Positions 41,226 to 58,779 of a DNA stretch of 64,000 bases are shown piece after piece. Numbering within the stretch: the first letter of the stretch is position 1; each line of letters begins with the position of its first letter. A program made the position numbers and the translations under genes. The notes beneath the pieces were generated by a model that had not been told where the DNA came from, made no database searches, and saw only the letters and a list, made by a program, of their open reading frames with translations. The stretch lies in assembly GCF_004804275.1 (NCBI RefSeq), contig NZ_STGI01000010.1, forward strand, positions 124,001 to 188,000, written 5' to 3'. The DNA is from Herbaspirillum sp. ST 5-3. GTDB lineage: Bacteria; Pseudomonadota; Gammaproteobacteria; Burkholderiales; Burkholderiaceae_D.

Positions 41226-41274
41226 GATCGTGGAATGTCGTCCTTGGTTGAGCTGCGAAATATGAAGCAAAATG

Positions 41275-41291
41275 CATATATGTTGTATATG
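41275..41291. promoter_or_regulatory. Inverted repeat in the fdsG/regulator intergenic region
   Basis: CATATA-N5-TATATG in the 132 bp between the divergent fdsG and ModE-like gene. It resembles the TATATA-spaced half sites bound by ModE in E. coli, so it is a candidate operator for the adjacent regulator. Inference only. Confidence 0.45.
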
Positions 41292-41357
41292 ATTTTTGTA
41301 TACTACGAGGCTAACATGCGGAGAATTGCTACTCAATATGATACGAATTACATAAAT

Positions 41358-42419: not shown

Positions 42420-42662
42420 TTTGAGTGTCTCAGTGGTTTCCGGGGCTTTTTGTGGCTGGTCTACGGGGCGGAAACTACGCGCAGAATCTGCAAGGTGCCT
42501 CGGAGCGACCGCCTACTTTTCTCGCCTCTCTGCCCGCCTCAAAGCGCCATCACGTCTATTCGTCAATTTATTGAACTCCCGACTTATGTGTGATTGCCCC
42601 GGCCGTTTCGATGGCCTTCGTGCGGAGGCAATGAGGCGCAGAAGAATCCATTTGAAACGAGG

Positions 42663-42678
42663 CTGCATACGAATGCAG
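42663..42678. promoter_or_regulatory. LacI-type operator O1 (upstream copy, unit A)
   Basis: Perfect palindrome CTGCATAC|GAATGCAG in its 6-bp arms with a central CpG, the hallmark of LacI/GalR-family operators. Its centre lies 123 bp upstream of O2. Confidence 0.75.
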
Positions 42679-42757
42679 CTGGAATTAATTAGTTTCGCTC
42701 TTCAACTAAAGCTTCTCGCATAAGCTTGTAAATCGAAAAACAACGTCGAAAAAATGG

Positions 42758-42786
42758 TTGACACAAAAAAACTCGAGGAGCAGAAT
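42758..42786 (+). promoter_or_regulatory. Predicted promoter of unit A
   Basis: TTGACA (42758-42763), 17-bp spacer, CAGAAT (42781-42786). The -10 is weak but its position and the overlap with operator O2 match the second promoter at 51011. Confidence 0.65.
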
Positions 42787-42802
42787 TGCATACGTCTGCA
42801 AT
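42785..42802. promoter_or_regulatory. LacI-type operator O2 (over the promoter, unit A)
   Basis: ATTGCATACGTCTGCAAT has perfect 6-bp arms ATTGCA/TGCAAT. It covers the -10 to +1 region, so binding should block transcription. Confidence 0.78.
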
Positions 42803-43024
42803 GAAATAAAAACGCCGCAGCCGAATGAAATTTCAGTTGATTTCAGACAAAAAATGCAAATACATCGCCACGAAGCAAGCGAGAGCCTGAGCCACGCGTT
42901 CCGTGGCCTTTTCCAACAAGGGCGACCATGTGGGGTTCACTCTCAGCGAGGGTGCGATCACAACGCTAGCTGTATGTGAACTTCTTCGTTCCGCGCAACC
43001 AATCTCAACATTCTGATTCAGCAC

Positions 43025-43909
43025 ATGGCCTTCGAAAATTTGAAAATTATCGGCGAACGTATCAATCCGGGATTTAAGAGCAGCAAGCTCTTATTCGATA
43101 GCGAGAATGTCGCCGGAATTCAAGCTCTCGCTGCCGAGCAGGTGCGAAACGGCGCCAGCTACATCAACATCAATATCGGCGACAAAGCCGTCACCAGGCC
43201 AGAGTTCATGACTGAGGTGATCAAGGCTGTGCAGCAGGTCGTATCGGTGCCGCTGTCTTTTGATTTTCCAAATGCCGACGTGCAGGCGCGCTGCTTGAAG
43301 GCGTACGACCGAGAGAAAGCAGTCGGGCAGCTTCCGATCGTTAACTCGATATCGGAATTGCGATGGGAAATGCTGGATCTGTTGAAGATTGCTCCATGTC
43401 GCTTTGTATTGATGGCATCCGAGCGCGAACAGAATGGCAAAAGAATTGCGAACAAGACAGCACAAGAAGTGCATGAAACGGCAAGGCGTATGGCCCGAAA
43501 AATTCTAGACACTAACGCCGGCCTTACTATTGATGATTTGTTCGTCGATGTTTCTGTCGGGCCGATCGGTGCTGATATGGAAGGCTTGACTCGCATGGCC
43601 GTCGACGCCATCCGCGCCATCGGAAGCGACAAGGAGTTGAAGGGAGTTCACATGTCAGTAGGTCTGTCGAACATTAGCATCATGCTCCCGACGAAAGCTA
43701 TCGATGGAAGTCCTCTTAAGTCGCAAATTGAGTCGGCATTCCTTACGTTGACGACGCCATTTGGTCTAGATACCGTGCTTGGGACACCGGGGAGGGACTA
43801 TGAGCGTCTACCAGACGACAACCTGGTGATGCGTGGTGTTTGCGAGTCGCTTGAGCTGGACGGAATCGATGCAATTCTGCGAATTCAACAGCTTTACCGC
43901 GGTGATTGA
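43025..43909 (+). CDS. Methyltetrahydrofolate:corrinoid methyltransferase (MeTr family)
   Basis: A 294-residue pterin-binding TIM barrel of the MeTr/AcsE-MtgA-CmuB group. It starts with the conserved IGERINPGFKSSKLLF and continues GASYININIGDKAV. DLFVDVSVGPIGAD and GVHMSVGLSNISIMLP are further pterin-barrel segments. The enzyme moves a methyl group between a methyl-Co(III) corrinoid protein and tetrahydrofolate. It is too short to be methionine synthase and sits 56 bp ahead of a corrinoid protein gene. Direction (to THF) is inferred from the FolD gene downstream and the nearby formate dehydrogenase. Confidence 0.88.
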   Translation: MAFENLKIIGERINPGFKSSKLLFDSENVAGIQALAAEQVRNGASYININIGDKAVTRPEFMTEVIKAVQQVVSVPLSFDFPNADVQARCLKAYDREKAVGQLPIVNSISELRWEMLDLLKIAPCRFVLMASEREQNGKRIANKTAQEVHETARRMARKILDTNAGLTIDDLFVDVSVGPIGADMEGLTRMAVDAIRAIGSDKELKGVHMSVGLSNISIMLPTKAIDGSPLKSQIESAFLTLTTPFGLDTVLGTPGRDYERLPDDNLVMRGVCESLELDGIDAILRIQQLYRGD

Positions 43910-43931
43910 GGATCAATGCTGCGGGGCTGTC

Positions 43932-44641
43932 CTGGCAAGCTGAATATCTGCGAAAGGAAGAGGACGTGATTGATAGAGATGCGCTGTTCAACGCGATCTG
44001 TAAGGGTGATCGCAAGACGGTGATTGCGATTGTCCAGGGTGCGGTTGACGCGGACGGGGACGTGGTCTCGCTTCTGAACGAAGTGATGATTCCGGCCATG
44101 CGCGAAGTAGGCGAGCGCTTTTCGCGCAATGACATTTTCGTGCCGGAGATGCTGGTGGCAGCGCGCGCCATGCAGGGTGGAATCGACATCATTGAGCCGA
44201 TCCTTGCGAATGCGGGCTACGAACCGATCGCCAAAGTGTGCATCGGGTCAGTCAAGGGCGACCTGCATGATATCGGGAAGAACCTGGTGGTGATGATGCT
44301 TAAAGGGGCTGGTTTCGAAGTCGAGGACCTGGGTGTTGACGTCGAAGTGGAGCAGTTCGATGACGCGGTACAGCGCGGCGCACGAGTGGTATGCCTGAGT
44401 GCATTGCTGACGACGACCAAAGACGAAATGCGAACGGTGATCGAACATTTCCGCGCCCGTGAAGACGTGAAGGTTGTGGTGGGCGGGGCGGTGATCACGC
44501 AGGACTATGCCGATGAGATTGGTGCGGCGGGATTCGGGCGGGATGCCACCGACGCCGTACGCGCCGTGAAAGATTGTATTGGCATCGCCGCCTAACGTGG
44601 CCTGCCGTCAACAGCGCTGATACTGCGAGGCCATAGCCATG
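43932..44641 (+). repeat. 710-bp direct repeat, copy 1
   Basis: Identical to 51208-51917 except for three single-base differences that I could see (44433 a/c, 44544 t/c, 44616 g/a). It contains the RBS and whole corrinoid protein gene and ends exactly at the ATG of the activator gene. Confidence 0.95.
43966..44595 (+). CDS. Corrinoid protein, copy 1
   Basis: A 209-residue methyl-carrier protein with an N-terminal helical cap (B12-binding 2, about residues 1-85) and a Rossmann-type cobalamin domain. The base-off/His-on signature is complete: GDLHDIGKNLV with axial His101, then CLSAL (Ser145/Leu147) and VVVGGAV (Gly173-Gly174). A GTG start after AGGAAGAGG is shared with copy 2; an earlier in-frame TTG at 43906 is outside the duplicated block and is not used. 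It shuttles methyl groups between the UroD-family and MeTr enzymes. Confidence 0.92.
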   Translation: MIDRDALFNAICKGDRKTVIAIVQGAVDADGDVVSLLNEVMIPAMREVGERFSRNDIFVPEMLVAARAMQGGIDIIEPILANAGYEPIAKVCIGSVKGDLHDIGKNLVVMMLKGAGFEVEDLGVDVEVEQFDDAVQRGARVVCLSALLTTTKDEMRTVIEHFRAREDVKVVVGGAVITQDYADEIGAAGFGRDATDAVRAVKDCIGIAA

Positions 44642-46555
44642 GAACTGACCGTTAAGACATTCGATAGCGAGCTGGTGATCGACGAAGTCAACCGCCTCGA
44701 GCTTGACCAGATATTGCATGACCACGGATATTTCCTAAATAAGCGATGCGGCGGCGAGGGGACGTGCGGCGGCTGCAAGGTCGTTCTTGAGGAAGGAGAG
44801 GTGACGGTTGCAGGCAAGCCGATATCCACCTCGGCCTCTCATCCACGTAACGTGCTTGCCTGCTGCACGAAGCTGGTTGGACCTCGCTCAGTCGTTCGCA
44901 TACCGTCACGTTCTTTGATCGAGGTTGGCGGCGCGATCGAGCACGAGTTTTATCTGCCGGCGAACCTGGTAGTGAATCCGCCGATCAGAAAGATTTGTGT
45001 TGCCATACGGGCAGCATCGCTGACTGATCATCGTTCCGACCAGGAACGAATGGTTGATGAAATTCAGCGATTGAGCGGCTTGCATTCCATCGTGGTTCCC
45101 TTGAGCATGACGAAACGCCTGTGTCGCTTGCTTGGTGCTGGCGCTCAGATGTTAAACGTTACCCTGGCGGCGTTCGGGGAACATTGGAAGGTATTTGACC
45201 TTGAAGGCGGCGACAGCCAGGGGTGTTCCTACGGAATGGCAATTGATATCGGCACGACGACAGTGGTTGGTTTGCTGATCAATTTGGAAACAGGGGCCAT
45301 ACTGCAGAATGCAGCACGTTACAACCAACAGGTAGAAATGGCCGACGATGTGGCTTCACGTATCTCGGCAGCCAAGTCCGTGCAAAATGTCGAGCGTCTG
45401 CAACGCCTTGTCGTGCTTGATACGATCAATCCTATTATCGACAGCGTGTGCCATGCCGAAGGTATCACCCGGGATGAGATCAAGTCTTTTGTCATCGCCG
45501 GTAATACGGTCATGGCTCACCTGTTACTCGGCCTTGATGTATCAAACATTGGAAAGCTGCCCTTCAATCCATGTGTCCGTCACGCAGAGATGGTGACCGC
45601 ACGTCAGTTGCACATGCACGGACATCCCGACGCTCATGTTGAGGTAATCCCGGCGATAAGTGGGTATATCGGTGGTGATATTACCGCAGACATCTGCGTT
45701 GCCGATTTGGAGTCGCACCCGGACGGGACCTTGCTTGTCGATATCGGGACCAATGCCGAAATGGTGCTCAAGGATCGAAATGGTCTTATTTGCTGCGCCA
45801 CACCAGCCGGGCCTGCTTTCGAGGGTGCGGGACTCTTGCATGGCTGTCGTGCGTCAAAAGGGGCAATTGCGCACGTCGAAATCGGTCCGGATCTTGAGTT
45901 TACAATTGAGTGCATCGAGGCCGCGCCACCCAAAGGCGTCTGCGGCTCCGCAATCATCGATTTTATCGCGGAAGGCTTCAAGCGGGGGCTAATCAACCGG
46001 GCTGGTCGCTTCGATGTTGCCCGCCTCAAGGAATGCGATAGACATGTGAAACTCGATATCGCTGGTCAATCAGTGCACGCCTGTGCGCTCACCAGGCGCA
46101 CGACGAGCAGCGAAGATTCGCAGATTCTAGTCACCGAGGCAGATATTGCACAGATCTTGCAGGCGAAGGCAGCAATTTTCTCCGGCATCAAGACATTACT
46201 CGAACAGGAGGGCCGGTCTTTCGGTAATGTCCGTAGCATCCTTCTTGCCGGAGGGTTTGCACGGCATATAAATCTTGAGAACGCAATGTGCATAGGAATG
46301 CTGCCCAGGCTGCCGACGGAGCGCTTTGTGGTGATGGGAAATAGTGCACTAGCCGGCGCATATCTATCTTTAGTGGACTATGGGCGGGCGAAAGTAATGC
46401 ATGAGATACATCTGCGTCCTCGCATCGTTGAACTAAATCTCGTTGATTCATTTGAGGGTAATTTCATCGAGGCGTTGTACTTGCCTGAGGTGATTGAAGA
46501 TGCGCCCGACGAGCAGGCGCACAGTTATATGGAGGCAGACGAGAATGTACATTGA
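44639..46555 (+). CDS. Corrinoid activation protein (RACo/RamA-like, DUF4445)
   Basis: A 638-residue ATP-dependent reductive activator that returns inactive Co(II) corrinoid to Co(I). The N-terminal plant-type [2Fe-2S] domain has Cys37, Cys43, Cys46 (RCGGEGTCGGC) and Cys75 or 76. A linker leads to an ASKHA-type ATPase core starting near YGMAIDIGTTTVVGLLINLE (about residue 200), with LLVDIGTNAEMVL and ILLAGGFARHINLE typical of DUF4445. It lies 43 bp after the corrinoid protein and overlaps the next gene by 11 bp. Confidence 0.9.
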   Translation: MELTVKTFDSELVIDEVNRLELDQILHDHGYFLNKRCGGEGTCGGCKVVLEEGEVTVAGKPISTSASHPRNVLACCTKLVGPRSVVRIPSRSLIEVGGAIEHEFYLPANLVVNPPIRKICVAIRAASLTDHRSDQERMVDEIQRLSGLHSIVVPLSMTKRLCRLLGAGAQMLNVTLAAFGEHWKVFDLEGGDSQGCSYGMAIDIGTTTVVGLLINLETGAILQNAARYNQQVEMADDVASRISAAKSVQNVERLQRLVVLDTINPIIDSVCHAEGITRDEIKSFVIAGNTVMAHLLLGLDVSNIGKLPFNPCVRHAEMVTARQLHMHGHPDAHVEVIPAISGYIGGDITADICVADLESHPDGTLLVDIGTNAEMVLKDRNGLICCATPAGPAFEGAGLLHGCRASKGAIAHVEIGPDLEFTIECIEAAPPKGVCGSAIIDFIAEGFKRGLINRAGRFDVARLKECDRHVKLDIAGQSVHACALTRRTTSSEDSQILVTEADIAQILQAKAAIFSGIKTLLEQEGRSFGNVRSILLAGGFARHINLENAMCIGMLPRLPTERFVVMGNSALAGAYLSLVDYGRAKVMHEIHLRPRIVELNLVDSFEGNFIEALYLPEVIEDAPDEQAHSYMEADENVH

Positions 46556-47258
46556 TTTCGATCGAGACGACATCTTGACACAGGCTCATGATCGCGTGGC
46601 GCATCGCCGCGACGTCGAGCGTGTCCGCAAGGGAGCGGATGCCGCGTATGAGCAACTGTCAGAATGCCTCGCATTGGCATTGCGCTGTGTGCGAACGCTA
46701 TCGAAGCCGGCCGCTGCTGTCATCGAAGTCAATGCTGCTGAAATTTTGCGTGACCTGATGCACGGCGATGAACCACTGCTGCTGACACCCCATGTAGAGC
46801 CATCGACTGCAGGAGATGTTAAAGCATACCTGTATCTCGTGACATGTGGGCTCGACTCACGCGAGGCTATGCGATGGCTCGAAAATGACTACGCCGCGTA
46901 TCATTTTCAGAATGAGATTGCACGCGAGCTGGTCTTTGCCGTGGCGCGCCATACGCATCGCAACGTCTGCGCCAATCATCCCGGCTATAGATTTGTTCGA
47001 CATGCGATTCGCACCGAAATGCCTACGCCGCACGGAGCTGTGAAAGGCAACGGTGGCGCAGCCCGTCTATGGGACCCGCGCGGGGTCGGGCGTTTGCTAC
47101 AGCGATTCGGGAGTGATGCTCTTGCCGTCTCTACAACGAGTGCCGGCTGTCTGACGCCGCTCCACTCGCTCGTGGGTTTGATGATCGGTACGCCAATCTG
47201 CAATGACGAGCATGCTGCATATCCTGTGCACACCGACGCTGAGCCAGCATGCGCATAG
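46545..47258 (+). CDS. Stand-alone MetH-activation-domain-like protein
   Basis: A 237-residue protein that I assign tentatively to the family of B12-dependent methionine synthase activation domains. Two segments fit: YLVTCGLDSREAMRWLEND (helical region), then HPGYRFVR and a C-terminal SAGCLTPLHSLVGLMIGT that resembles the SAM-binding end of the MetH activation domain. GGAGG precedes ATG 46545, which overlaps the activator gene. Such proteins occur in corrinoid demethylase clusters and may help SAM-dependent or structural reactivation of the corrinoid protein. Confidence 0.6.
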   Translation: MYIDFDRDDILTQAHDRVAHRRDVERVRKGADAAYEQLSECLALALRCVRTLSKPAAAVIEVNAAEILRDLMHGDEPLLLTPHVEPSTAGDVKAYLYLVTCGLDSREAMRWLENDYAAYHFQNEIARELVFAVARHTHRNVCANHPGYRFVRHAIRTEMPTPHGAVKGNGGAARLWDPRGVGRLLQRFGSDALAVSTTSAGCLTPLHSLVGLMIGTPICNDEHAAYPVHTDAEPACA

Positions 47259-47488
47259 CTCGCTGAGCGACAAGGGACGGCGAAGCGGAGCGATTCGCCA
47301 GCAAGATAATCGACACCACCCAAAGGCAAATCAAAAACGCAACCGTATGCAAGAGCGACATATCGATCTTTCCCATCGCTTACGCCAGCGGGCATGACGA
47401 GTGAGGCGAAAATTTAAACACACCATCTGACGAGCTGGGCTACCTTTTGCAGTCCGGTATCGAGAGAAATTGCCAGGAGAATTTCAAG

Positions 47489-48280
47489 ATGCATCAGTTC
47501 CATCCAATTGACACACGTCTGCCTGCTATGCTGCGTAGCGGAAAACGCTTGCGTGGTGTTTTCAACGGCCTTCCGTCACCCGCCATCGTCGAGATGTGTG
47601 CCTATGCCGGTTTCGACTTTATTGTCATCGACAACGAGCATGGAAGCTCTGATCTCCAAATCACCGAGCACATGCTGCGTGCAGCAAGAGCAAGCGGGAT
47701 CCCACCGCTTGTGCGGTGCTTCGAGCAGGATATTGCGCGCATTCTCGACATGGGCGCCAGCGGTGTGCAAATACCAATGGTTGATACCGCAAAACAGGCT
47801 GCTAGCATTGTGCAGAAAATTCGTTATCCGCAACGGAGCGGCGTTAGCGGCCTACGCGGCAGCGCCTTTAGTACGCGTGCAGCCGGCTATGGCGCTTTTG
47901 GTGGCCCTGCGCACACAAAATTGAGCAACGAGCATATCGCGCTTGTCGTAATGATCGAAACCCCCGAAGGCGTCGCCAATGCCTCAGAGATTGCCGCCGT
48001 AGACGGTGTCGACGCTGTTTTTGTGGGCCCGAATGATCTGGCCCATAACATGGGGCACGAAAATCGCTGGAGCGAGCCCGAGGTGCAGCAGGCGATCGAA
48101 CATGCGCTGCGTGCCGTGGCTGCGGCCGGAAAATGCCCAGGCGTGCTGGCGCTCGGCGAAGAAGAAGAGAATAAGTACGCAGTCTGGGGAGGGAGATATT
48201 TTGCTAGCACCACGACAGGACTAATGACGCATGCGTTTCGCCAAGCGGCCCAAAGTGGTGCCCGTGGTGCCGGTTATTGA
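47489..48280 (+). CDS. HpcH/HpaI-family aldolase
   Basis: A 263-residue class II (metal-dependent) aldolase that cleaves 4-hydroxy-2-oxo acids to pyruvate or a related 2-oxo acid and an aldehyde. Family marks are GFDFIVIDNEHGSSD near residues 41-55, VMIETPEGVANASEIA (metal-binding Glu) and VFVGPNDLAHNMG. RBS AGGAGA precedes ATG 47489. It follows the activator genes after 230 bp and precedes folD. Its true substrate is unknown; the location suggests it processes what remains after demethylation. Confidence 0.82.
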   Translation: MHQFHPIDTRLPAMLRSGKRLRGVFNGLPSPAIVEMCAYAGFDFIVIDNEHGSSDLQITEHMLRAARASGIPPLVRCFEQDIARILDMGASGVQIPMVDTAKQAASIVQKIRYPQRSGVSGLRGSAFSTRAAGYGAFGGPAHTKLSNEHIALVVMIETPEGVANASEIAAVDGVDAVFVGPNDLAHNMGHENRWSEPEVQQAIEHALRAVAAAGKCPGVLALGEEEENKYAVWGGRYFASTTTGLMTHAFRQAAQSGARGAGY

Positions 48281-48385
48281 CGCAAATGTTCGCGGCGTAA
48301 ACGCACGATGGACGCGCCCACCCAAAGCAACACGGATTGATTTGAACCGGTGGACAAAACAATTGGCACGGAGAAGATACTGAAT

Positions 48386-49264
48386 ATGAGTAGAGCATTT
48401 ATCATCGACGGTAAGGCGTTTGCCGAAAACTTGACCCGAGAGATGGCCGAGGAGGTCACGTCAGTCCGCGAAGCACATGGGTTAGTTCCTGGACTGGCAG
48501 TGGTGCTTGTCGGCGATGATCCAGCAAGCCAGGTCTACGTACGAAATAAAGCGCGACAAACGGAAGCGATTGGAATGCGCTCATTTGAGTATCGCCTCCC
48601 TTCCGACACCTCGCAGAATGACTTGCTTGCGCTGATTGGCCAGCTCAATGCCAATCCGGAGGTTCACGGAATACTCGTGCAATTGCCACTGCCACGTCAT
48701 CTTGACAGCGCGTTGGTGATTGATTCGATCGATCCGGCGAAGGACGTGGATGGATTCCATGTCACTAACGTCGGACGACTCAACGCCGGTCTGCAATCAC
48801 TCATTCCCTGCACCCCCAAGGGTTGTTTGATGCTTCTGAAGAATCATCTCGGGGACTTGTCGGGAAAACATGCGGTGATTATCGGACGGTCCAACATCGT
48901 CGGAAAGCCGATGGCAGCGCTACTGCTAGCCGAGCATTGCACCGTGACCGTCGTTCATTCGCGCACCCGGGATGTTGCAAGTGAGTGTCGTCGTGCAGAT
49001 ATTCTCGTCGCTGCGGTTGGCCAACCTGAATTTGTACGGGGCGATTGGATTAAGCCAGGCGCGACGGTAATCGATGTGGGTATCAATCGTGTGACCGCAC
49101 CCAATGGTAGTACGCGCCTTGTAGGCGATGTCAATTTACTGGAAACGCAGGAAATTGCTGGAGCAATTACCCCGGTGCCCGGCGGCGTCGGGCCCATGAC
49201 TATCGCATGCCTGCTACAAAATACGCTCGAAGCTGCGCGATGTCAGATTGGTGTTAGCAGATAG
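48386..49264 (+). CDS. folD: Methylenetetrahydrofolate dehydrogenase/cyclohydrolase
   Basis: A 292-residue bifunctional enzyme that interconverts methylene-, methenyl- and 10-formyl-THF with NADP. Motifs: [17 protein letters not shown] (with catalytic Tyr/Lys region), [25 protein letters not shown] and [13 protein letters not shown]. This FolD lies inside a corrinoid cluster and could be a second, pathway-specific copy; a housekeeping copy elsewhere is assumed. It supplies the oxidative branch from methylene-THF toward formate. folD also accompanies the chloromethane gene cluster cmu in methylotrophs. Confidence 0.94.
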
Positions 49265-49358
49265 GTTCTTGAACGACTTGGCAGCGTTGCCGAGCGCGGC
49301 GCGCAGCCAGGACGCTCTTTGGTACATTGAAGCGAGGTACAACACAGCCACGCGCGAC

Positions 49359-50381
49359 TTATTCGGGTGGCTTCCTTGCCGATTCGCGAACCACCAGGCG
49401 CACGGGCAAGACAATAGTTTCACTCCGCGGACCGGTATCTTCATCAGCCAGCGAGCGGTGCACTAATTTAATAGTAGCTTCGATCATCAGATTTAACGGC
49501 TGTTCGACTGTTGTCAAAAGATAGGATTGCCAGCTTGCCTGGGGTACATTATCAAATCCGACGACGGAGACATCCTCCGGAACACGTAACTTAAGTTCGT
49601 GACGTAGTGTGTCCATTACCGCGAACGCCATATGATCGCTTGCGACAAAAACTGCATCCGGACGATCGTCTGAAGAACTGAACAGTTCCCGAGTCGCCTG
49701 GCGAGCGGTCTCGAAATCATAGTTCCCAATGGCGCGAGCATAGACACGCATTCCATGCTCGGCGAGTCCCTCGCGGAATCCGCGTTCACGTTCCATACTG
49801 GTCGAAGACTCTTCGTAACCGGTAATGTAGGCAATGCGGCGATTGCCTGCAGCAGCCATGAAACGGGCCACTTCTTGGCCACCGCTAATATTGTCGGACC
49901 GGACCGAGCTTACTGCGCCGGTGTCGTCTTTCGACATCACGCGATTAAACAGGACTACCGGGATGTTGGCGTCAGCGCAATGCTGTGCCAAACCCGATGA
50001 TAACGTCGTCGACGCCAGCACGATACCGTCGACGTTATATTGCAATAGTTCGCCAATAAGGCTGTCCGAATTGTTGTTTTCAGTAATGAACAGCAGCACG
50101 TGGAAGCCGTCGGCTTGCAGGCATTTAGCCAGTCTCTCCAGCGCAAGCGGGTAAAACAGATTGTCAAGGTCCGAGAGGACCAGTCCAATTATGTTCGAAC
50201 GACCAGTGATGAGACTGCGCGCATGGGCATTCGGGCGATAGCCAAGTTTGCGGGCCGCCTCAAGGACTTTTTCCCGCGTTGCTTTCGACACGCTGGCGCC
50301 CGGTGTAAATGTGCGACTGACAGCTGATTGCGAGACGTCCGCAAGGCGGGCCACATCAAAGGAAGTTACAGGTGTCTTCAT
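49359..50381 (-). CDS. LacI-family regulator of the methyl-transfer units
   Basis: A 340-residue LacI/GalR repressor. The HTH (SFDVARLADVSQSAVSRTF, about residues 6-24) and hinge helix (ARSLITGRSNIIGLVL) are followed by a PBP-like ligand domain (GIVLASTTLSSGLA, DAVFVASDHMAFAV, VPEDVSVVGFDNVP). It lies between the two units and is antisense to them. The four palindromes with central CpG at 42663, 42785, 50917 and 51038 are its likely binding sites. The inducer is unknown. Confidence 0.88.
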   Translation of the reverse strand: MKTPVTSFDVARLADVSQSAVSRTFTPGASVSKATREKVLEAARKLGYRPNAHARSLITGRSNIIGLVLSDLDNLFYPLALERLAKCLQADGFHVLLFITENNNSDSLIGELLQYNVDGIVLASTTLSSGLAQHCADANIPVVLFNRVMSKDDTGAVSSVRSDNISGGQEVARFMAAAGNRRIAYITGYEESSTSMERERGFREGLAEHGMRVYARAIGNYDFETARQATRELFSSSDDRPDAVFVASDHMAFAVMDTLRHELKLRVPEDVSVVGFDNVPQASWQSYLLTTVEQPLNLMIEATIKLVHRSLADEDTGPRSETIVLPVRLVVRESARKPPE

Positions 50382-50916
50382 CTCTTGTCCATTAAGCGTG
50401 AGCTTCCTCGACACAACTGGCAATCCTTACACCAGCGCTACCGGATTGAAGCACAACCAAACCCCTACCGTCCTCGACTTGATGGAAGTGAGCGACAACA
50501 ACTTCGGAAGCCGCATGCGCGCTATTCAGCAAGTCGGCAAAAATTTGTTGGTTCATTGGAGTGTTCTAATGGCCTTGTTGTGTGCTGAGCGTCGAGAGCT
50601 CTTGTGCGATGACTTTTTATCGAGGAGTGGTCGTTTTTTCACTCGCCAGCAAGAGAGCAGTGTACCTGATATGCGTGGAATGCATGAAGCAGTGAGCTCG
50701 TCTATTGCACGTACCAGCATGTCTAGCTAACGCGTCGATATACCGCGATAGGCCAGGTCGCGCCACCTTCCAATTAGAGTGAACTCTGTGAATTAAGCCC
50801 TCATGGAGGCTTCCCTAGTGCCGCAGTAATCGACCCATCAGGCACGCCAATTGATTGGCTATGTAGGATATCTGCGAACCCATAGAAATATAACAGATCG
50901 GGAAAAAGCATGCCAG

Positions 50917-50932
50917 TGGCATGCGTATGCAA
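50917..50932. promoter_or_regulatory. LacI-type operator O3 (upstream copy, unit B)
   Basis: TGGCATGC|GTATGCAA, which read on the other strand is TTGCATAC|GCATGCCA and matches O2 and O4. Its centre lies 121 bp upstream of O4. It overlaps an additional 17-bp palindrome at 50908-50924 (gcatgcca-g-tggcatgc). Confidence 0.72.
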
Positions 50933-51010
50933 TAAACACAATTTATTTTATCCGTTCCAATAAATAGGAAAATGCAGGAGAAAAAACCGAGAAAAATTGC
51001 CAAAAACCGG

Positions 51011-51039
51011 TTGACACAGGATTTCAATCGAGACACAAT
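51011..51039 (+). promoter_or_regulatory. Predicted promoter of unit B
   Basis: TTGACA (51011-51016), 17-bp spacer, CACAAT (51034-51039), with operator O4 over the -10. It mirrors the unit A promoter although the surrounding sequences are not otherwise alike. Confidence 0.68.
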
Positions 51040-51053
51040 GCATACGCATGCAA
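51038..51053. promoter_or_regulatory. LacI-type operator O4 (over the promoter, unit B)
   Basis: ATGCATAC|GCATGCAA with central CpG, sharing TGCATACG with O1 and O2. It covers the -10 to +1 region of the unit B promoter. Confidence 0.78.
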
Positions 51054-51207
51054 TCGAGACGGCCTCTTCGCATGACTCTGGGTGCGGCCGTCAAACCACT
51101 GCGGTAAAGCAAGCCTTTATCTAATGTGAACCAAGCTGTCAGAGCTCTATAGTTTTACTGCCTTGCAGTCCGCACAAGTGATGGTACTGATGCCAGCCCT
51201 GTGCTAA

Positions 51208-51917
51208 CTGGCAAGCTGAATATCTGCGAAAGGAAGAGGACGTGATTGATAGAGATGCGCTGTTCAACGCGATCTGTAAGGGTGATCGCAAGACGGTGAT
51301 TGCGATTGTCCAGGGTGCGGTTGACGCGGACGGGGACGTGGTCTCGCTTCTGAACGAAGTGATGATTCCGGCCATGCGCGAAGTAGGCGAGCGCTTTTCG
51401 CGCAATGACATTTTCGTGCCGGAGATGCTGGTGGCAGCGCGCGCCATGCAGGGTGGAATCGACATCATTGAGCCGATCCTTGCGAATGCGGGCTACGAAC
51501 CGATCGCCAAAGTGTGCATCGGGTCAGTCAAGGGCGACCTGCATGATATCGGGAAGAACCTGGTGGTGATGATGCTTAAAGGGGCTGGTTTCGAAGTCGA
51601 GGACCTGGGTGTTGACGTCGAAGTGGAGCAGTTCGATGACGCGGTACAGCGCGGCGCACGAGTGGTATGCCTGAGTGCATTGCTGACGACGACCAAAGAC
51701 GAAATGCGCACGGTGATCGAACATTTCCGCGCCCGTGAAGACGTGAAGGTTGTGGTGGGCGGGGCGGTGATCACGCAGGACTATGCCGATGAGATTGGTG
51801 CGGCGGGATTCGGGCGGGACGCCACCGACGCCGTACGCGCCGTGAAAGATTGTATTGGCATCGCCGCCTAACGTGGCCTGCCGTCAACAGCACTGATACT
51901 GCGAGGCCATAGCCATG
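51208..51917 (+). repeat. 710-bp direct repeat, copy 2
   Basis: Second copy of 43932-44641. Its right end carries the ATG that starts the activator gene in copy 1; here that ATG opens a frame of only seven residues (51915-51938). This makes copy 1 the probable donor. Confidence 0.95.
51242..51871 (+). CDS. Corrinoid protein, copy 2
   Basis: A 209-residue protein identical to copy 1; the two coding differences are synonymous. GDLHDIGKNLV (axial His101), CLSAL and VVVGGAV are all intact. It is the first gene of unit B, directly upstream of the UroD-family methyltransferase that presumably methylates it. See copy 1 for domain layout. Confidence 0.92.
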   Translation: MIDRDALFNAICKGDRKTVIAIVQGAVDADGDVVSLLNEVMIPAMREVGERFSRNDIFVPEMLVAARAMQGGIDIIEPILANAGYEPIAKVCIGSVKGDLHDIGKNLVVMMLKGAGFEVEDLGVDVEVEQFDDAVQRGARVVCLSALLTTTKDEMRTVIEHFRAREDVKVVVGGAVITQDYADEIGAAGFGRDATDAVRAVKDCIGIAA

Positions 51918-51993
51918 ATTCTGATGAGCGAAGAATGAGCGCCGGGCCCGTAATAACCGTTTAATCCTGATTACCGCACCAAGTGAGTAAAGA

Positions 51994-53181
51994 ATGACAC
52001 CACGAGAAATATTCAAAACGGCAATGAATCACCAGCAGCCGGAACGTATGCTTGTTGATATGGGCAAGCATATCGGCTCAATCCATAAAAGGGCATACCC
52101 CGGGATCCGCGAGTACCTCGGAAATGTTCCGATGAAAAACGAACGTTTGATTCTCGATCGCATGGCACAAACAGTGGTGCCGGATGAGGAGTTATTGCAG
52201 CGCTTCGGCGTTGACTTCCGCTGGGTCGTTCCACACTACGTTCAAGTAAAAGAGCGTGAGGATGTCGACGGTTACATTGACATGTGGGGCGTCCCCTATC
52301 GTGCAACCGCCGACAAGGACCACTTCGCGGTTGACGGCGCGCCGTTGAAGAAGGCCACCCTTAAGGATATCGACAAATTCCAGTGGCCGCAGGTCGATGA
52401 CCCTAAGCAATTTGAAGGGCTTGGCGTGCGAGCAAAGCATTTGTTCGAAAACACCGGCTATGTGATTGGTGCTGATGCGATCAAGGCTGGTCCGTTAATG
52501 ACAGCGCTGCAAATGCGTGGTTACGAGCAGTTTTTCATGGATCTCGTAATTGATACTGACTTTGCTGATGCGTTGCTCGAGCGGATTACCTGGACCTTGA
52601 AGGAAATGTGGACCAGATATATGCGAGACGTCGGCCCATACGTGCAGATTGCCTATGTGACCGATGACCTGGGCACGCAAACGTCAATGCTCATGTCGCC
52701 CCAGTTGTTCCGTGAGCGAATCAAGCCATGGATGACACAGCTGCATAACCACATCAAAAGCCTTGCTGACGTCAAGCTAATGATGCACACAGATGGCGCA
52801 GTCTTGCCTGTCATTGAGGACATCATCGAGATGAACGTGGATATCCTTAACCCGGTGCAAACGTCGACAAAAGGTATGGAAGATACCGCAAATTTGAAAG
52901 AGCGTTTTGGTGATCGCCTTTCATTTCACGGCGCAATCGACGTCCAGCAATTGTTGCCGAATGCGTCTTATGACGAGCTTCGCTGGGAAGTCGCAAAACG
53001 AATTCATGACCTCGGGCGTAATGGCGGCTACATCATCGCGCCTTGCCACAACATTAGCCATGACACGCCGCCGGAAAACGTGGTTGCGCTGTTCGACCTG
53101 GTCAAGGAGTTCGGTCAATATCCACTCAATCTAGACGCCGAAATTGCCAAGAACAATTCGTATTTTGCGCGATTCAAGTAA
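51994..53181 (+). CDS. UroD/MtaA-family methyltransferase (substrate:corrinoid)
   Basis: A 395-residue TIM-barrel protein of the uroporphyrinogen decarboxylase superfamily. It is not HemE: it sits with a corrinoid protein and lacks the HemE N-terminal signature. In MtaA/CmuA relatives a zinc site binds the methyl donor or thiol; here the equivalent strand reads KLMMHTDGAVLPVIEDI (His265, with Asp267 where MtaA has Cys), and Cys351 lies in YIIAPCHNISHDTPPENV. FHGAIDVQQLLP is a typical UroD-family segment. It is the best candidate for the enzyme that takes the methyl group from the unknown growth substrate. Confidence 0.82.
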   Translation: MTPREIFKTAMNHQQPERMLVDMGKHIGSIHKRAYPGIREYLGNVPMKNERLILDRMAQTVVPDEELLQRFGVDFRWVVPHYVQVKEREDVDGYIDMWGVPYRATADKDHFAVDGAPLKKATLKDIDKFQWPQVDDPKQFEGLGVRAKHLFENTGYVIGADAIKAGPLMTALQMRGYEQFFMDLVIDTDFADALLERITWTLKEMWTRYMRDVGPYVQIAYVTDDLGTQTSMLMSPQLFRERIKPWMTQLHNHIKSLADVKLMMHTDGAVLPVIEDIIEMNVDILNPVQTSTKGMEDTANLKERFGDRLSFHGAIDVQQLLPNASYDELRWEVAKRIHDLGRNGGYIIAPCHNISHDTPPENVVALFDLVKEFGQYPLNLDAEIAKNNSYFARFK

Positions 53182-53274
53182 TTAATCAGCGGTGCGCATA
53201 CTTACTGCCTCGTCGGCTTAATTGTACTGCCGCACCAGAAAAAACTACCAAATGCAATTTTGAAGGGGGCTTTT

Positions 53275-54525
53275 ATGTCAATGCTTGAGCGTCTGAAGCC
53301 AGACTATGCACGTAACATGCGAATCGTTGGACACTCCGACCAAGGGGGGCGCAGCGATGGTGTGCAGGTGATGGTGAGCGGCGGTTATGCGTATATCGGT
53401 CACGTCTTCTCCGGTGGCTTCTCCGTGGTGGACGTGCGTGATCCGGCAAACCCAAAGTTCGTACAGCATGTTCCCCAGCCGGCCGGGACGTGGAGCCAGC
53501 ATTTGCAGACGAATGGCGACCTGCTTCTTGTGGTCAACATGAAAGACATGCTGCGTGATGAAAACGTTAACGCTGGCCAGTATTATTCCGGCTCCATAGC
53601 GGGCAAGGTAGATGTCTCCGCTTCCAATCGCGGTTACTCAGCTGGTATGCGAGTTTTCGACATTAAGGACCGCGCAAACCCGCGTGAAATCGGTTTCATG
53701 CCGTTAGATGGTCTAGGTGTGCATCGCATCTGGTACGAGGGTGGAAGATGGGCCTACGTGTCGGCGTTGCCTCCGGGATTTACAGACGATATTTTTATTG
53801 TCGTCGACATGGCAGATCCGACGAATCCCGTTCCGGTAAGTCGTCTATGGTTGCCGGGCATGAATACTGCCGCTGGCGAGACACCGAGCTGGGATCCCAA
53901 GTATCGCTACGCGCTGCATCACGCCATTATCAAAGGAGACCTCGCATGCGGGGCATGGCGTGACGGTGGTATGACGACCATCGATATCAGCGACCGGTAT
54001 AACCCGAAGCTGCTTGCGCACCGAAACTTCGCGCCGCCTTTCGCCGGCGGGACGCACAACACGCTACCGTTAATCGACAGAGGTCTTCTTGTCGTTGTCG
54101 AAGAGGCCGTGTTCGATAACTGCGAGGATGGCATTAAGCGCAACTGGGTTTTTGATATCCGAAACCCAGCCAATCCTATCAGTATTTCGACCCTGCCGAT
54201 TCCTGGCGAGATTGACTATGCGACGAAGGGCGGCCAATTTGGGCCGCACAACATACACGAGAACCGGGCAGAGAGTTTCCAAAGTTCCGAGATACTTTTT
54301 GTCACCTATCAGAACGCGGGCTTGCGTGTCTATGACATTCGCGATCCGTTCCGGCCGCAAGAGATTGCCGCGCTTGTGCCGCCAGCGCCAACCAAAATGA
54401 TGGACTATCGTCCAAACCGGCCCAAAGTTATCGATACCACCGATGTATTTGTTGACGAAAAAGGACTGATCTATTGCACAGACTCCAATGCAGGGCTCTA
54501 CATCCTTGAGATGGACAAGTTGTAA
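53275..54525 (+). CDS. LVIVD-repeat beta-propeller protein
   Basis: A 416-residue protein built of LVIVD-type repeats (for example GGFSVVDVRDPANPKFV, GMRVFDIKDRANPREIG, GMTTIDISDRYNPKLLA, GLRVYDIRDPFRPQEIA), expected to fold as a beta-propeller. Histidines recur at repeat edges (SQHLQTNG, VHRIWYEGG, ALHHAIIKGD, THNTLPL, PHNIHENR), which may form a metal site in the central channel. No signal peptide is seen, so it is probably cytoplasmic. GAAGGGGG precedes ATG 53275. The function of this family is unknown; its place in unit B suggests a role in substrate conversion. Confidence 0.78.
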   Translation: MSMLERLKPDYARNMRIVGHSDQGGRSDGVQVMVSGGYAYIGHVFSGGFSVVDVRDPANPKFVQHVPQPAGTWSQHLQTNGDLLLVVNMKDMLRDENVNAGQYYSGSIAGKVDVSASNRGYSAGMRVFDIKDRANPREIGFMPLDGLGVHRIWYEGGRWAYVSALPPGFTDDIFIVVDMADPTNPVPVSRLWLPGMNTAAGETPSWDPKYRYALHHAIIKGDLACGAWRDGGMTTIDISDRYNPKLLAHRNFAPPFAGGTHNTLPLIDRGLLVVVEEAVFDNCEDGIKRNWVFDIRNPANPISISTLPIPGEIDYATKGGQFGPHNIHENRAESFQSSEILFVTYQNAGLRVYDIRDPFRPQEIAALVPPAPTKMMDYRPNRPKVIDTTDVFVDEKGLIYCTDSNAGLYILEMDKL

Positions 54526-54594
54526 TAAGTCGATGGTTTTTTTGACGGCGCGCTAGCCTGCAGCGCCAGTGCGTCATCCCGTACAAGGTATTGC

Positions 54595-55578
54595 ATGAAT
54601 ACACAGATAAAGACAGTGCTCGTAGTTGGGCAGATCCATCCTGCGGGCATGGAGGTACTCCAAGCAAATGCAAGCTTGAAGATTGAGGTGATCTCGGATC
54701 CCGGCGCCGCCATCCCGGTAAGTAGTGTCGAGGCGGCGGACGCGGTGCTGATCCGTTATGGTGTCATGACGGAGGCGCATATCGCTAACGCCACCAAGCT
54801 CCGAGTTGTTTCACGCCATGGCGTAGGCTGTGACAATCTGCCCGTGGACGCACTCTCTGAGCGCAACATTCCCGTCACCGTCGTTGGGCCAGTCAACGCC
54901 GTTTCGGTTGCCGAGCAGGCAATGGCCATGATGTTGGCACTTTCGAAGAAATTGGTCGGATACGACCAGTCCGTGCGCAAGGGGGCATGGGGAATCCGTG
55001 ACAGCCTGGCCGCTACCGAGCTTTCTGGCAAGACGCTGTTGCTCCTTGGCTTTGGGCGTATTGGGCGAGAGGTGGCAAAACGTGCACGCGCGTTTGATAT
55101 GAACGTCTTGGTCTTTGACCCCATGATTTCCGCCGAGCGTGCTGCGGCAGAAGGCGTCGTTAAGGTCGAGGACTGGCGTGGCGAACTCGGGCGAGTCGAT
55201 GTTCTGAGTCTGCATTTGCCGCTGACGAAGGAAACCCGCGGTATTGTCAACGACGAGGTTCTCGGCGCAATGAGGGCAACTGCGATTATCTTGAATACCG
55301 CACGCGGAGGTTTGATTGACGAGCACGCGTTGCACCGGGCGCTGACAGGACGTATGGCGTTTGGGGGCGCAGGTATCGATACATTCGAAAAAGAGCCGCC
55401 GACGCTGGATCACCCATTTATGGCTTTGCCGAATGTAATTCTCAGCCCGCATAGTGCCGCGCTCACCGAAGAGGCGGCCAAGAGAATGGGAATGGTTGCG
55501 GCTCAAAACGTGGTTGCAGGACTGGAGAACCGTCTCAATCCCGATCTGATATTCAATCGCCACGCACTCAAGATGTAG
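54595..55578 (+). CDS. D-2-hydroxyacid dehydrogenase (SerA-like)
   Basis: A 327-residue NAD-dependent dehydrogenase. The Rossmann motif is LLGFGRIGREVAKRARAF (about residues 150-167). Catalytic Arg lies in ILNTARGGLIDE, Glu in TFEKEPP and His in ILSPHSAAL. The regulatory domains of true SerA are absent. Members oxidise or reduce 2-hydroxy/2-oxo acids or phosphoglycerate; the substrate here is not determinable. Confidence 0.85.
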   Translation: MNTQIKTVLVVGQIHPAGMEVLQANASLKIEVISDPGAAIPVSSVEAADAVLIRYGVMTEAHIANATKLRVVSRHGVGCDNLPVDALSERNIPVTVVGPVNAVSVAEQAMAMMLALSKKLVGYDQSVRKGAWGIRDSLAATELSGKTLLLLGFGRIGREVAKRARAFDMNVLVFDPMISAERAAAEGVVKVEDWRGELGRVDVLSLHLPLTKETRGIVNDEVLGAMRATAIILNTARGGLIDEHALHRALTGRMAFGGAGIDTFEKEPPTLDHPFMALPNVILSPHSAALTEEAAKRMGMVAAQNVVAGLENRLNPDLIFNRHALKM

Positions 55579-55582
55579 TCAA

Positions 55583-55598
55583 TATAGGCGCGCCTATA
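55583..55598. promoter_or_regulatory. Perfect 16-bp palindrome
   Basis: TATAGGCG|CGCCTATA begins 4 bp after the dehydrogenase stop and lies 40 bp ahead of the cytochrome gene. There is no T-run, so it is not an obvious terminator; it may be a regulator site. Confidence 0.5.
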
Positions 55599-55637
55599 CC
55601 GCACGGAGCCGCTGATGAAGAACGAAGAGTCGTCAAG

Positions 55638-56345
55638 ATGAAAACCCAGATACCTACTGAAGTTTACTTAGCCTTCCTCGGAAGAACCATTGATATTCAC
55701 TGGGATAGGCACGCTATCCTGATGCTAACAGCCTGGTTCGTACTGGTGCCTGCTGGCGTAATTGCCATTCGATTCTTCAAGCCGTTGCCAGCGCCCTATG
55801 GAATTGCAAGAGGAACTGGACGCTTCGATCGCAATCTGCTTTGGTGGACGATTCATTGGACGTTTCTCTATACGGCGATCGCGCTGTCACTTGCAGGTAT
55901 GACGGTGGCACTCGTTGTTAGCAAGGGCTTCAGTGGCTCGCTGCATGCGGTATTCGGGGTTGCTACTGTTATTTTTGGCTGCATACAGATTGTGTCCGCT
56001 TGGCTTCGAGGTACGCATGGCGGCAAGCACGGTGCTCATTCCGATCCGTCGGATCAGTCCACATGGCATGGCGATCACTACGATATGACGCCGAGGAGGC
56101 GGTGGTTCGAGGCCTATCACAAAACTGGCGGTTATTTTACCTTGGCCATGGCGATCGCAACGGCAACAACAGGCTTACAGCAGCTGTGGATAGATGCAGT
56201 TGCATTTTTCATCGTCGCAATATTGGGTGCACTGCTGGTGGTTGCGGTCGTTCTCGAGGGGTTGGGATACCGGCAGGATACGTATCGCTCGGTGTACGGC
56301 AACCATCCTGATCATCCGTTCAATAAAGCGCGCGAGCATCTTTAA
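55638..56345 (+). CDS. Cytochrome b561-like membrane protein
   Basis: A 235-residue protein with about five hydrophobic helices (near residues 25-47, 65-90, 95-117, 155-175 and 180-203). Histidines suited to haem ligation lie in DIHWDRHAILML, WWTIHWTFLYT, SGSLHAVFG and EAYHKTGGYF. It resembles the cytochrome b561/ferric reductase-like transmembrane group. As a membrane electron carrier inside unit B it might couple a redox step of the pathway (dehydrogenase, LVIVD protein or corrinoid reduction) to the quinone pool. That link is inference. Confidence 0.7.
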   Translation: MKTQIPTEVYLAFLGRTIDIHWDRHAILMLTAWFVLVPAGVIAIRFFKPLPAPYGIARGTGRFDRNLLWWTIHWTFLYTAIALSLAGMTVALVVSKGFSGSLHAVFGVATVIFGCIQIVSAWLRGTHGGKHGAHSDPSDQSTWHGDHYDMTPRRRWFEAYHKTGGYFTLAMAIATATTGLQQLWIDAVAFFIVAILGALLVVAVVLEGLGYRQDTYRSVYGNHPDHPFNKAREHL

Positions 56346-56383
56346 CTTTCATGCATGCCAGGTAAGTGCGATGCTTTTGAGCG

Positions 56384-56419
56384 GCTAATCAAAAGACGCA
56401 TGCTAATCAAAAAACGCAT
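56384..56419 (+). repeat. Tandem 18-bp repeat upstream of folB
   Basis: gctaatcaaaagacgcat followed directly by the same 18 bases with one change (g to a). It lies 45 bp ahead of folB and may bind a regulator or be a slippage product. Confidence 0.7.
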
Positions 56420-56463
56420 ATCACCAGGCACAGTGCATATCATTTATTCCGGGTTGAATCATC

Positions 56464-56943
56464 GTGTCCTCACTGTTGCAGGTTGAAACTGGGGTGGCTC
56501 CTAGTGAGCTAATACCTTCTGCTCCGTTACAAATGGCTCTTCCAAGGATGGCGCTCATTCCAATAAATGAAGATCGCGTGTTTCTAAGGGGGTTAAGGAC
56601 TGAGGCGCTTATCGGAGTCTACGCTCATGAGCGCCAAGCACCTCAGCCACTCGTAGTAGATCTCGAAATCGGACTGGCTAACTTTCGAAGCTGCTTTAGT
56701 GACGATCTTGCGGATGCAGTAGATTACGACAAGGTGGCAGAAATGGTCCATAGCATAGCGGGCGAGAGCAGAACGCAGTTGCTGGAAGCCTTGGCGCAAC
56801 GAATCGCGTCTGCAGTTCTCGCCAATTTTGATGCTAAATGGGTCCAGGTTGATATCGTTAAACCCGCTGTCATATCTGAGGCCAAGGTTGTGGGCGTGTC
56901 AATCAAACGTGCACGATCGCACCCTCGCCGAGAGATACGCTGA
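56464..56943 (+). CDS. folB: Dihydroneopterin aldolase-like protein
   Basis: A 159-residue FolB-family protein, about 35 residues longer at the N-terminus than usual. The core reads VFLRGLRTEALIGVYAHERQ and VDYDKVAEMVHSIAGESRTQ, with LLEALAQRIASAVLANF and VDIVKPAVISEAKVVGVSIK typical of the family. It makes 6-hydroxymethyl-dihydropterin for folate (or epimerises dihydroneopterin). Start GTG at 56464. As last gene of unit B it could boost tetrahydrofolate supply for MeTr. Confidence 0.85.
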   Translation: MSSLLQVETGVAPSELIPSAPLQMALPRMALIPINEDRVFLRGLRTEALIGVYAHERQAPQPLVVDLEIGLANFRSCFSDDLADAVDYDKVAEMVHSIAGESRTQLLEALAQRIASAVLANFDAKWVQVDIVKPAVISEAKVVGVSIKRARSHPRREIR

Positions 56944-58744: not shown

Positions 58745-58773
58745 TTGACGCTGTTATATCTGCAAACTATGAT
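58745..58773 (+). promoter_or_regulatory. Promoter of the bluB-cob riboswitch transcript
   Basis: TTGACG (58745-58750), 17-bp spacer, TATGAT (58768-58773). The start would be near 58780, at the riboswitch 5' end. Confidence 0.75.
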
Positions 58774-58779
58774 TCCACG

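Follow-up and report, generated by a model that had tools for sequence, protein, structure and literature searches.

Two adjacent gene units of Herbaspirillum sp. ST 5-3 encode a vitamin B12-dependent (corrinoid) methyl-transfer system built around a protein of the UroD superfamily. They are situated in a stretch of 64,000 nucleotides (nt), which was analyzed as a whole and is called the window here (contig NZ_STGI01000010.1, positions 124,001 to 188,000 of the forward strand). As judged from sequence comparisons, this horizontally shared gene set probably uses B12 to demethylate an imported, perhaps sugar- or polyol-like, compound for energy, the donor being predicted. The original prediction, made from the DNA letters alone, had proposed a complete corrinoid demethylation system with the UroD-family protein as donor enzyme and oxidation of the methyl group via tetrahydrofolate and formate dehydrogenase. 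The gene set, the donor-enzyme candidate, and, at the gene level, the methyl oxidation are supported, the special link to CmuA is not, and the supposed rarity in aerobes is weakened.

Components of the corrinoid system

Unit A comprises genes for a MeTr-type methyltransferase, a corrinoid protein, RACo, a MetH-activation-fold protein (P254), an HpcH-like aldolase, and FolD, and unit B contains a near-identical corrinoid gene and genes for the UroD-superfamily protein, an LVIVD β-propeller, a D-2-hydroxyacid dehydrogenase, and a b561-like protein. A LacI gene is located between the two units.

36377..41507, minus strand: formate dehydrogenase gene set, upstream of unit A (Pfam Molybdopterin/Fer2_4, Complex1_51K, 2Fe-2S_thioredx)
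42663..42678, strand (.): LacI-type operator CTGCATACGAATGCAG, 5' of unit A (pattern match)
42786..42801, strand (.): LacI-type operator TTGCATACGTCTGCAA, 5' of unit A (pattern match)
43025..43909, plus strand: MeTr-type methyltransferase, predicted methyltransferase II (methyl-corrinoid to tetrahydrofolate; Pterin_bind, 59.6 bits)
43966..44595, plus strand: corrinoid protein copy 1 (B12-binding and B12-binding_2; DLHDIG motif)
44639..46555, plus strand: RACo-like reductive activator with N-terminal 2Fe-2S domain (RACo_C_ter 247.5, Raco_middle 174.7, Fer2 26.2 bits)
46494..47258, plus strand: P254, stand-alone MetH-activation-fold protein (longest frame, start maybe later; 62 nt overlap with the end of RACo)
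47447..48280, plus strand: HpcH/HpaI-type aldolase (HpcH_HpaI, 123.8 bits; longest frame with TTG start, maybe a later start)
48350..49264, plus strand: FolD, methylene-tetrahydrofolate dehydrogenase/cyclohydrolase (Pfam and NCBIfam matches)
49359..50423, minus strand: LacI-family regulator, predicted binder of the common operator (LacI helix-turn-helix and periplasmic-binding domains)
50917..50932, strand (.): LacI-type operator, 5' of unit B (pattern match)
51038..51053, strand (.): LacI-type operator ATGCATACGCATGCAA, 5' of unit B (pattern match)
51242..51871, plus strand: corrinoid protein copy 2 (Pfam domains)
51994..53181, plus strand: UroD-superfamily methyltransferase, predicted donor-specific methyltransferase I
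53275..54525, plus strand: LVIVD β-propeller-type protein, predicted enzyme of substrate catabolism (LVIVD, 53.2 bits)
54595..55578, plus strand: D-2-hydroxyacid dehydrogenase (2-Hacid_dh_C, 183.5 bits)
55638..56345, plus strand: cytochrome b561-like membrane protein (Cytochrom_B561, 23.3 bits, borderline to the cut-off of 23)

The three-component set of methyltransferases I and II, corrinoid protein, and activator is complete, with the UroD-type protein, two corrinoid proteins, the MeTr-type protein, and RACo encoded together. The UroD-superfamily protein has 395 amino acids and a URO-D domain alone, the corrinoid proteins being encoded separately. It scores 27.4 bits against the hemE model (cut-off 302.95) and 50.9 bits against the MtaA/CmuA family TIGR01463, below the curated cut-off of 235.4. 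Whether it falls inside HemE is answered by the phylogenetic tree, in which four HemE rows form a clade of their own (100/99) with the window protein outside; this separate clade and the model score rule out a HemE identity. A 29-row clade (100/99) holds the window protein and also CmuC, and CmuA, on a long branch, lies outside. The window protein and nine full-length relatives from β-, γ-, and α-proteobacteria form a single clade (100/99), the sister of which is a protein of Eubacterium aggregans, and a distant clade of about 30% identity sits in polysaccharide loci. The tree was calculated without labelled MtvB, OdmB, VdmB, MtoB, CdmB, MecC, and MecE, with unlabelled E. aggregans paralogues included; the partial gene of L016 (69% identity over 127 residues) was kept outside tree and tallies.

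Zinc ligands of the MtaA/CmuA family form a His-x-Cys ... Cys motif. In the aligned columns, the window protein has His265-x-Asp267...His352 as a candidate metal site versus His-Cys-Cys in CmuA, and from the tree position and these columns a CmuA-like origin is rejected and the special relation to CmuA proposed originally finds no support. Residues D224, D225, H265, D267, D316, and H352 are invariant in 20/20 aligned rows, and these six polar residues are located at, or adjoin, the ends of predicted strands. A profile of the UroD protein retrieved HemE chains from the PDB sequences and thereafter non-significant chains alone. The view that this protein is the best candidate for the donor enzyme is strengthened, since no MttB (PF06253) was found in its own genome (0/1; MtaB was not searched for) and, of the six B12-binding matches in the genome, the four outside the locus reside in open frames of 514-1250 amino acids, one of them MetH. 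The PF01208 search of the same genome gave, besides the UroD-type gene, two short equal-score matches (profile positions 2-39) on contigs C4:191002 and C23:552946 and no full-length HemE match, for which split contigs or absence of the gene are possible reasons.

The two corrinoid genes differ by 2 nt in their coding sequences and are embedded in near-identical stretches (43932-44641 and 51208-51917) 7276 nt apart; the presence of one such copy in each unit suggests recent duplication or gene conversion. The best solved relatives of the corrinoid protein are 1y80, presumably from Moorella and connected with the O-demethylation of aromatics, and the corrinoid protein of a trimethylamine methyltransferase. 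For the MeTr-type protein, NCBIfam gives the MeTr model as the best match (105.7 bits, under the cut-off of 259), solved relatives are MetH folate domains and MeTr, and a 76% orthologue exists in the related locus L004. The domains of RACo, including the 2Fe-2S domain, score over cut-off. P254 matches the MetH activation fold in fold comparison; its sequence comparison with the activation domain of the organism's own MetH was not significant, its profile gave nothing convincing among PDB sequences, and by eye the RPAPGY stretch of that MetH, considered with regard to AdoMet binding, has no counterpart in P254.

According to the mechanism we propose, an ATP-binding cassette (ABC) transporter of CUT1 type, encoded on another contig (C17), would import a small polyhydroxylated O-methyl compound, candidates being a methylated sugar, a polyol, a sugar acid, or a mycosporine-like ring. 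The UroD-type protein would take the methyl group from the donor and place it on the corrinoid protein's Co(I), perhaps assisted by a metal held by His265, Asp267, and His352, and MeTr, if it behaves like its family, would hand the methyl on to tetrahydrofolate. Methylene-tetrahydrofolate reductase (MTHFR), FolD, PurU, and formate dehydrogenase might then oxidize it to CO2, a flux supported at the gene level by MTHFR near a shared operator, FolD, two genomic PurU copies that pass the cut-off of their family, and a formate dehydrogenase set of Fds type. RACo would re-reduce cobalt (cob(II)alamin) after accidental oxidation, which presumably is frequent in air, and for P254 the modeled fold suggests docking on the corrinoid protein, where it probably would help in cobalt reactivation. 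Processing of the demethylated skeleton might fall to the LVIVD protein, the dehydrogenases of HpsN-like and D-2-hydroxyacid type, and the aldolase. What the analysis establishes is gene content, conservation, and linkage, a shared operator sequence, and predicted folds; donor, activity, expression, and LacI binding are proposals.

Operators, linkage, and relatives

A palindrome, TTGCATNCGNATGCAA, precedes units A and B. Allowing up to three mismatches, the pattern TTGCATACGNNTGCAA has 16 matches in the window versus 7.4 expected, and 1/100 shuffles reaches 16. Perfect matches to the core TGCATACGNNTGCA number five in the 5.8 Mb genome, three at the locus and two at C17:687-833; if up to one mismatch is allowed, the matches rise to 19+15, versus 7+5 for the reversed pattern, near-palindromes counting on both strands. 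Within 350 nt (255 in L007) 5' of the UroD unit, an operator matching at 11-14 of 14 positions is found in 10/10 proximal loci including the window, shuffles of each locus reaching its score in 0-2/200. Among 350-nt tiles over nine loci, 23/451 score at least 11, with the true sites among them. Sites of the window, L005, L008, and L009 were already known when the consensus was composed, and the remaining six of the ten loci therefore constitute the cleaner test. Additional sites are located beside ABC importer genes in L005, L006, L008, and L009, and the operator is absent from the E. aggregans operon (8/14).

The two core sites on C17 are followed, on one strand, by genes for an amidohydrolase, a protein with MTHFR and MTHFR-C domains, an ABC importer (solute-binding protein, two permeases, and an ATPase with MalK-type domains), a porin, a HisD-family dehydrogenase, an SDR protein, a bicupin, and an α/β hydrolase. 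The amidohydrolase is 43% identical to its counterpart in L004, which is located between the genes for MeTr and the corrinoid protein. The HisD-family protein is of HpsN type, being nearer to sulfopropanediol 3-dehydrogenase (397.1 bits) than to the best histidinol dehydrogenase (260.1 bits), its substrate assignment being putative. The matches of the solute-binding protein are binders of sugar, maltose, trehalose, and sorbitol, and for the bicupin no PDB match was obtained at 1e-3. Near the UroD cassette, relatives of the HpsN-like protein (60-66%) are encoded in L080, L131 (which extends L009), and L133 (which extends L008), and bicupin relatives (53-55%) in L005, L080, and L131, a linkage that is evidence independent of the operator. 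Because units A and B and the C17 genes share an operator and HpsN-like genes are linked to the cassette, locus and C17 genes look like one regulon for import, demethylation, and oxidation via tetrahydrofolate and formate.

With one genome considered per species, the closest matches to the UroD protein come from metagenome-assembled genomes (MAGs) of a lake β-proteobacterium (77%) and of marine γ-proteobacteria (73-76%), followed by one MAG each of Rhodobacteraceae and Hyphomicrobiales (67-68%) and by Ruegeria lacuscaerulensis (62%), of which strain HKCCD5857 has the cassette. The gene was detected in 1/150 genomes of the order, that is in its own genome alone, and in 5/345 of the family to which the Ruegeria genome G374 belongs. 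Ten genes of the cassette and of B12 metabolism have a GC content at third codon positions (GC3) of 0.55-0.63; the value is 0.69 for both the corrinoid gene and the formate dehydrogenase α gene, and 0.71-0.80 for five upstream genes that appear housekeeping-like by eye. In distribution and composition the cassette looks like a horizontally moving one. Spread on plasmids was considered at the DNA level and dropped, as no megablast match was obtained among plasmid records.

A hand tally of cassette content, based on tblastn against fetched flanks, covers the nine proximal relatives of full length (L004-L009, L079-L081), several contigs ending within the cassette. Corrinoid protein, LVIVD protein, hydroxyacid dehydrogenase, and b561 are each found in 8 of the 9, LacI and HpcH in 6, ABC importer parts, SnoaL-like, and P254 in 5, HpsN-like and bicupin in 3, and the window-type MeTr and RACo in 1. 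LVIVD orthologues are 66-85% and b561-like orthologues 50-61% identical to those of the window. A MeTr of another type adjoins or lies near the UroD gene in the α-proteobacterial L008, L009, and L080 (27-29% identity to the window's in L008 and L009). RACo is encoded in 10/10 tested genomes with a UroD relative, which represent 10 of 17 UroD loci (three of the distant clade, one E. aggregans), versus 25/369 genomes of the class, our organism included. Conserved linkage in related loci and shared operators rule out a chance co-location of the cassette genes.

Other genes recur in these neighborhoods. A MetE C-terminal-like protein is encoded near the UroD cassette in γ- and α-proteobacteria (L005:928-3445, L080:3-1891, L131:2-1093), accompanied in L005 and L080 by an α/β hydrolase and a RraA-like aldolase; it might represent another system that accepts methyl groups. 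A protein of about 327 amino acids is encoded beside a MeTr-type gene (L009:3400-4383, L080:8468-9394, L086:2-628), the L009 copy being without Pfam match. Plasmids of Alisedimentitalea and Leisingera (L027, L029) carry LVIVD (58-59%) and b561-like (52-53%) relatives alongside genes for an FAD/Fe-S dehydrogenase, TRAP components, and sugar ABC proteins, no UroD gene being annotated, and the LVIVD-dehydrogenase-b561 module may have an independent existence.

Candidates for the methyl donor

The range of donors is narrowed by the common LacI-type operator and by gene linkage to an ABC importer of carbohydrate type. We give slightly less than an even chance to the reading in which the locus serves as the demethylation core within a catabolic regulon under LacI control and its predicted donor is a polyhydroxylated O-methyl compound imported by the CUT1-type system; such a compound fits best, and methoxyaromatics come next. 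The sister operon of E. aggregans carries genes for a fucose-isomerase-like (FucI-like) protein, SMP-30, a sugar-binding and nucleotide-binding kinase-type protein, and TRAP components. Genes neighboring the distant UroD clade encode sulfatase, the glycoside hydrolases GH127 and GH31, ROK, TonB, and SSF proteins (Pfam tally of 75 of 103 neighbor open reading frames, 25 commonest of 87 families). Sugar-type importer, LacI control, E. aggregans operon, and distant-clade neighbors would all favor a carbohydrate-like donor. LVIVD relatives on plasmids lie near sugar-type ABC genes in the five annotated neighborhoods examined. A mycosporine-type donor, which we regard as a speculative sub-case suggested by its chemistry, would bring together the methoxy enol and hydroxymethyl groups of such rings with the aquatic hosts. 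In the literature searched, no paper on degradation with corrinoids held the term mycosporine, none was found on methylated sugars with cobalamin, and, judged by title, none dealt with methyl transfer by an LVIVD protein.

Several points weigh against a polyhydroxylated donor or a single regulon. An alkyl ether of a sugar has a much poorer leaving group and is hard to cleave. Characterized UroD-type methyltransferases I act on methoxyaromatic (aryl ether) or haloalkane donors (PMC13222342). At about 30% identity, the context of the distant clade may not transfer, and neither for this clade nor for L010 was a corrinoid protein match found within the fetched flanks. L006 has no LVIVD match after the UroD gene, MetV-type (PF12225) proteins occur in 5/10 related genomes, and the SnoaL-like genes of the relatives were found neither in 20 kb of C17 nor among the window proteins scanned. 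The operator consensus postdates the sites of the window, L005, L008, and L009, so that these loci are no independent test; L134, which has importer genes, shows no site at 12/14; and the C17 genes are called a run, a predicted unit, because of their common strand.

Some of the same neighbors would suit an aerobic counterpart of VdmB, OdmB, and MtvB that demethylates lignin-type methoxyaromatics, the neighboring enzymes degrading the ring and a glycerol-like side chain, a rival that we consider unlikely although it is the strongest. MtvB, OdmB, VdmB, and MtoB, all UroD-type, use methoxyaromatics (PMC13222342). HpcH, RraA-like, amidohydrolase_2, and glyoxalase/dioxygenase-superfamily proteins, the bicupin, and the α/β hydrolase would agree with aromatic catabolism, and on both plasmids examined HpsN-like relatives and an SDR gene are located among aromatic ring-cleavage genes. 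Furthermore, 1y80, presumably of aromatic O-demethylation in Moorella, is the best solved relative of the corrinoid protein. However, among Pfam-scanned neighbors, a subset of the frames, candidates for ring cleavage are limited to the bicupin and the glyoxalase/dioxygenase-superfamily protein of L005, and importer type, LacI-type control, and the sugar-type enzymes of the sister acetogen operon argue for a carbohydrate-like compound.

Distinctly less probable is an N- or S-methylated osmolyte of betaine or sulfonium type, with the UroD protein taking the place of MttB-type enzymes. To our knowledge, quaternary-amine demethylases belong to the MttB family, which is missing from this genome, and among the regulon proteins scanned there is no betaine transporter, the importer being sugar-type. 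On the other hand, glycine betaine is demethylated by a split corrinoid system in aerobic roseobacters (PMC12478193), and the other-type MeTr near UroD in L008, L009, and L080 might be an MtgD, an identity that is a guess. It is improbable, too, that the UroD protein acts as methyltransferase II or in reverse, from the corrinoid to another acceptor like MtaA or MtbA, with a neighbor such as the LVIVD protein as donor enzyme: a MeTr-type methyltransferase II is already encoded, the His-Cys-Cys set of CmuA is absent, LVIVD relatives are present on 111 plasmid records versus 7 for UroD relatives, and a UroD product is listed in 0/5 annotated LVIVD neighborhoods. A halomethane, as in the Cmu, Mec, and Cdm systems, is very improbable, for although FolD, PurU, MTHFR, and B12 genes accompany Cmu and the present system alike, CmuC groups within the 29-row clade of a tree lacking CdmB, MecC, and MecE, and haloalkane enzymes are scattered across the UroD superfamily (PMC13222342), CmuA has another tree position and differing candidate metal-site residues, and a gas requires no ABC importer, LacI regulator, aldolase, or sugar-acid-type dehydrogenases.

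Extending the polyhydroxylated-donor reading, we tentatively put forward, as an idea with less than even prospects, a family of B12-dependent O-demethylases that would act on the unactivated alkyl methyl ethers of sugars or polyols (or mycosporine-type rings) and have a metal site of the form His-x-Asp...His. It would have spread horizontally among marine and freshwater proteobacteria and would also serve acetogens and polysaccharide-degrading Bacteroidota, Planctomycetota, and Verrucomicrobiota in using the O-methyl sugars that algal and plant glycans contain. Methylated polyols, O-methyl sugars among them, are widespread constituents of the polymers of algae and plants, and the aerobic route of sugar O-demethylation that is well described employs an oxygenase (P450). 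If the proposal is true, an oxygenase-free B12 route that returns the methyl group to folate and is tied to a sugar-type importer would explain the reuse of such carbon and would place an extra cobalamin demand on heterotrophs of oxic waters; concrete enzymes and substrates become testable together.

Known systems and surrounding DNA

The acetogen and archaeal O-demethylases (MtvB/OdmB/VdmB/MtoB) share with the present system a UroD-superfamily methyltransferase I, a separate corrinoid protein, a MeTr-type methyltransferase II, and a RACo-type activator. In contrast, proteobacterial hosts, the MetH-activation-fold protein, and the cassette of β-propeller, dehydrogenase, and LacI set the present system apart, by gene content and not by tree. 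Cmu (CmuA/CmuB/CmuC) resembles it in its aerobic proteobacterial hosts, in UroD-type and MeTr-like proteins, and in FolD/PurU/MTHFR and B12 genes nearby, whereas here the components are unfused, the UroD protein lies outside the CmuA branch with His-Asp-His instead of His-Cys-Cys, and a sugar-type importer and regulator are present. MtgB, the donor enzyme of the roseobacter MtgBCDE system, belongs to the MttB family, of which no member was found here. Compared by description only, MtgBCDE is similar in being aerobic and in having a split corrinoid protein and separate methyltransferase components, with a ramA activator in a figure legend (PMC12478193). CdmBCA, the chloromethane system of Acetobacterium dehalogenans, also has three components and a UroD-fold methyltransferase I, but it is a haloalkane-specific system of an anaerobe with a hydrophobic channel (PMC13222342), unlike the invariant polar residues and sugar-type context described here. 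Type 1 mlp gene clusters encode bacterial homologues of soluble coenzyme M methyltransferases (UroD superfamily) and differ, by description, in their proposed role in methyl-sulfur/selenium metabolism in anoxic settings (PMC10418091).

With MtgBCDE published for glycine betaine in roseobacters (PMC12478193), aerobic split corrinoid demethylation is already known and rarity in aerobes is a weaker point than originally claimed; Phaeobacter uses methyl groups of algal compounds (PMC11306105). For the UroD clade, its LVIVD cassette, and the regulon, no account was found in the literature searched, most subscription papers being outside the search.

The formate dehydrogenase set, of Fds type with molybdopterin α, NuoF-like β, and NuoE-like γ subunits, likely provides the last step of methyl oxidation, its co-regulation being putative. 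Downstream of unit B are two further features.

56464..56943, plus strand: FolB-like dihydroneopterin aldolase, membership uncertain (FolB, 102.9 bits)
58769..62930, plus strand: cobalamin riboswitches (58769-58960 and 62691-62930) with BluB-type nitroreductase, CobT, and CobS between them (Rfam, Pfam)

FolB has no match in related loci (tblastn on fetched flanks). The riboswitch/BluB/CobT/CobS stretch is, by annotation, a cobalamin assembly region of low GC3 like the cassette. A 20-nt inverted repeat (42940-42959 and 56915-56934, 95% complementary) brackets units A and B, its right arm lying inside folB, at the end of that gene. Immediately before the formate dehydrogenase genes, a transposase-like frame (34032-35105, by eye) and a group II intron match (35719-35795; Rfam, 55.8 bits) represent mobile DNA near the edge of the low-GC region. 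Further upstream, at 28392-31577, a CsgG-like frame is accompanied by a long repeat protein with many motifs of SQxGxxNxAxI type, which by eye is curli-like.

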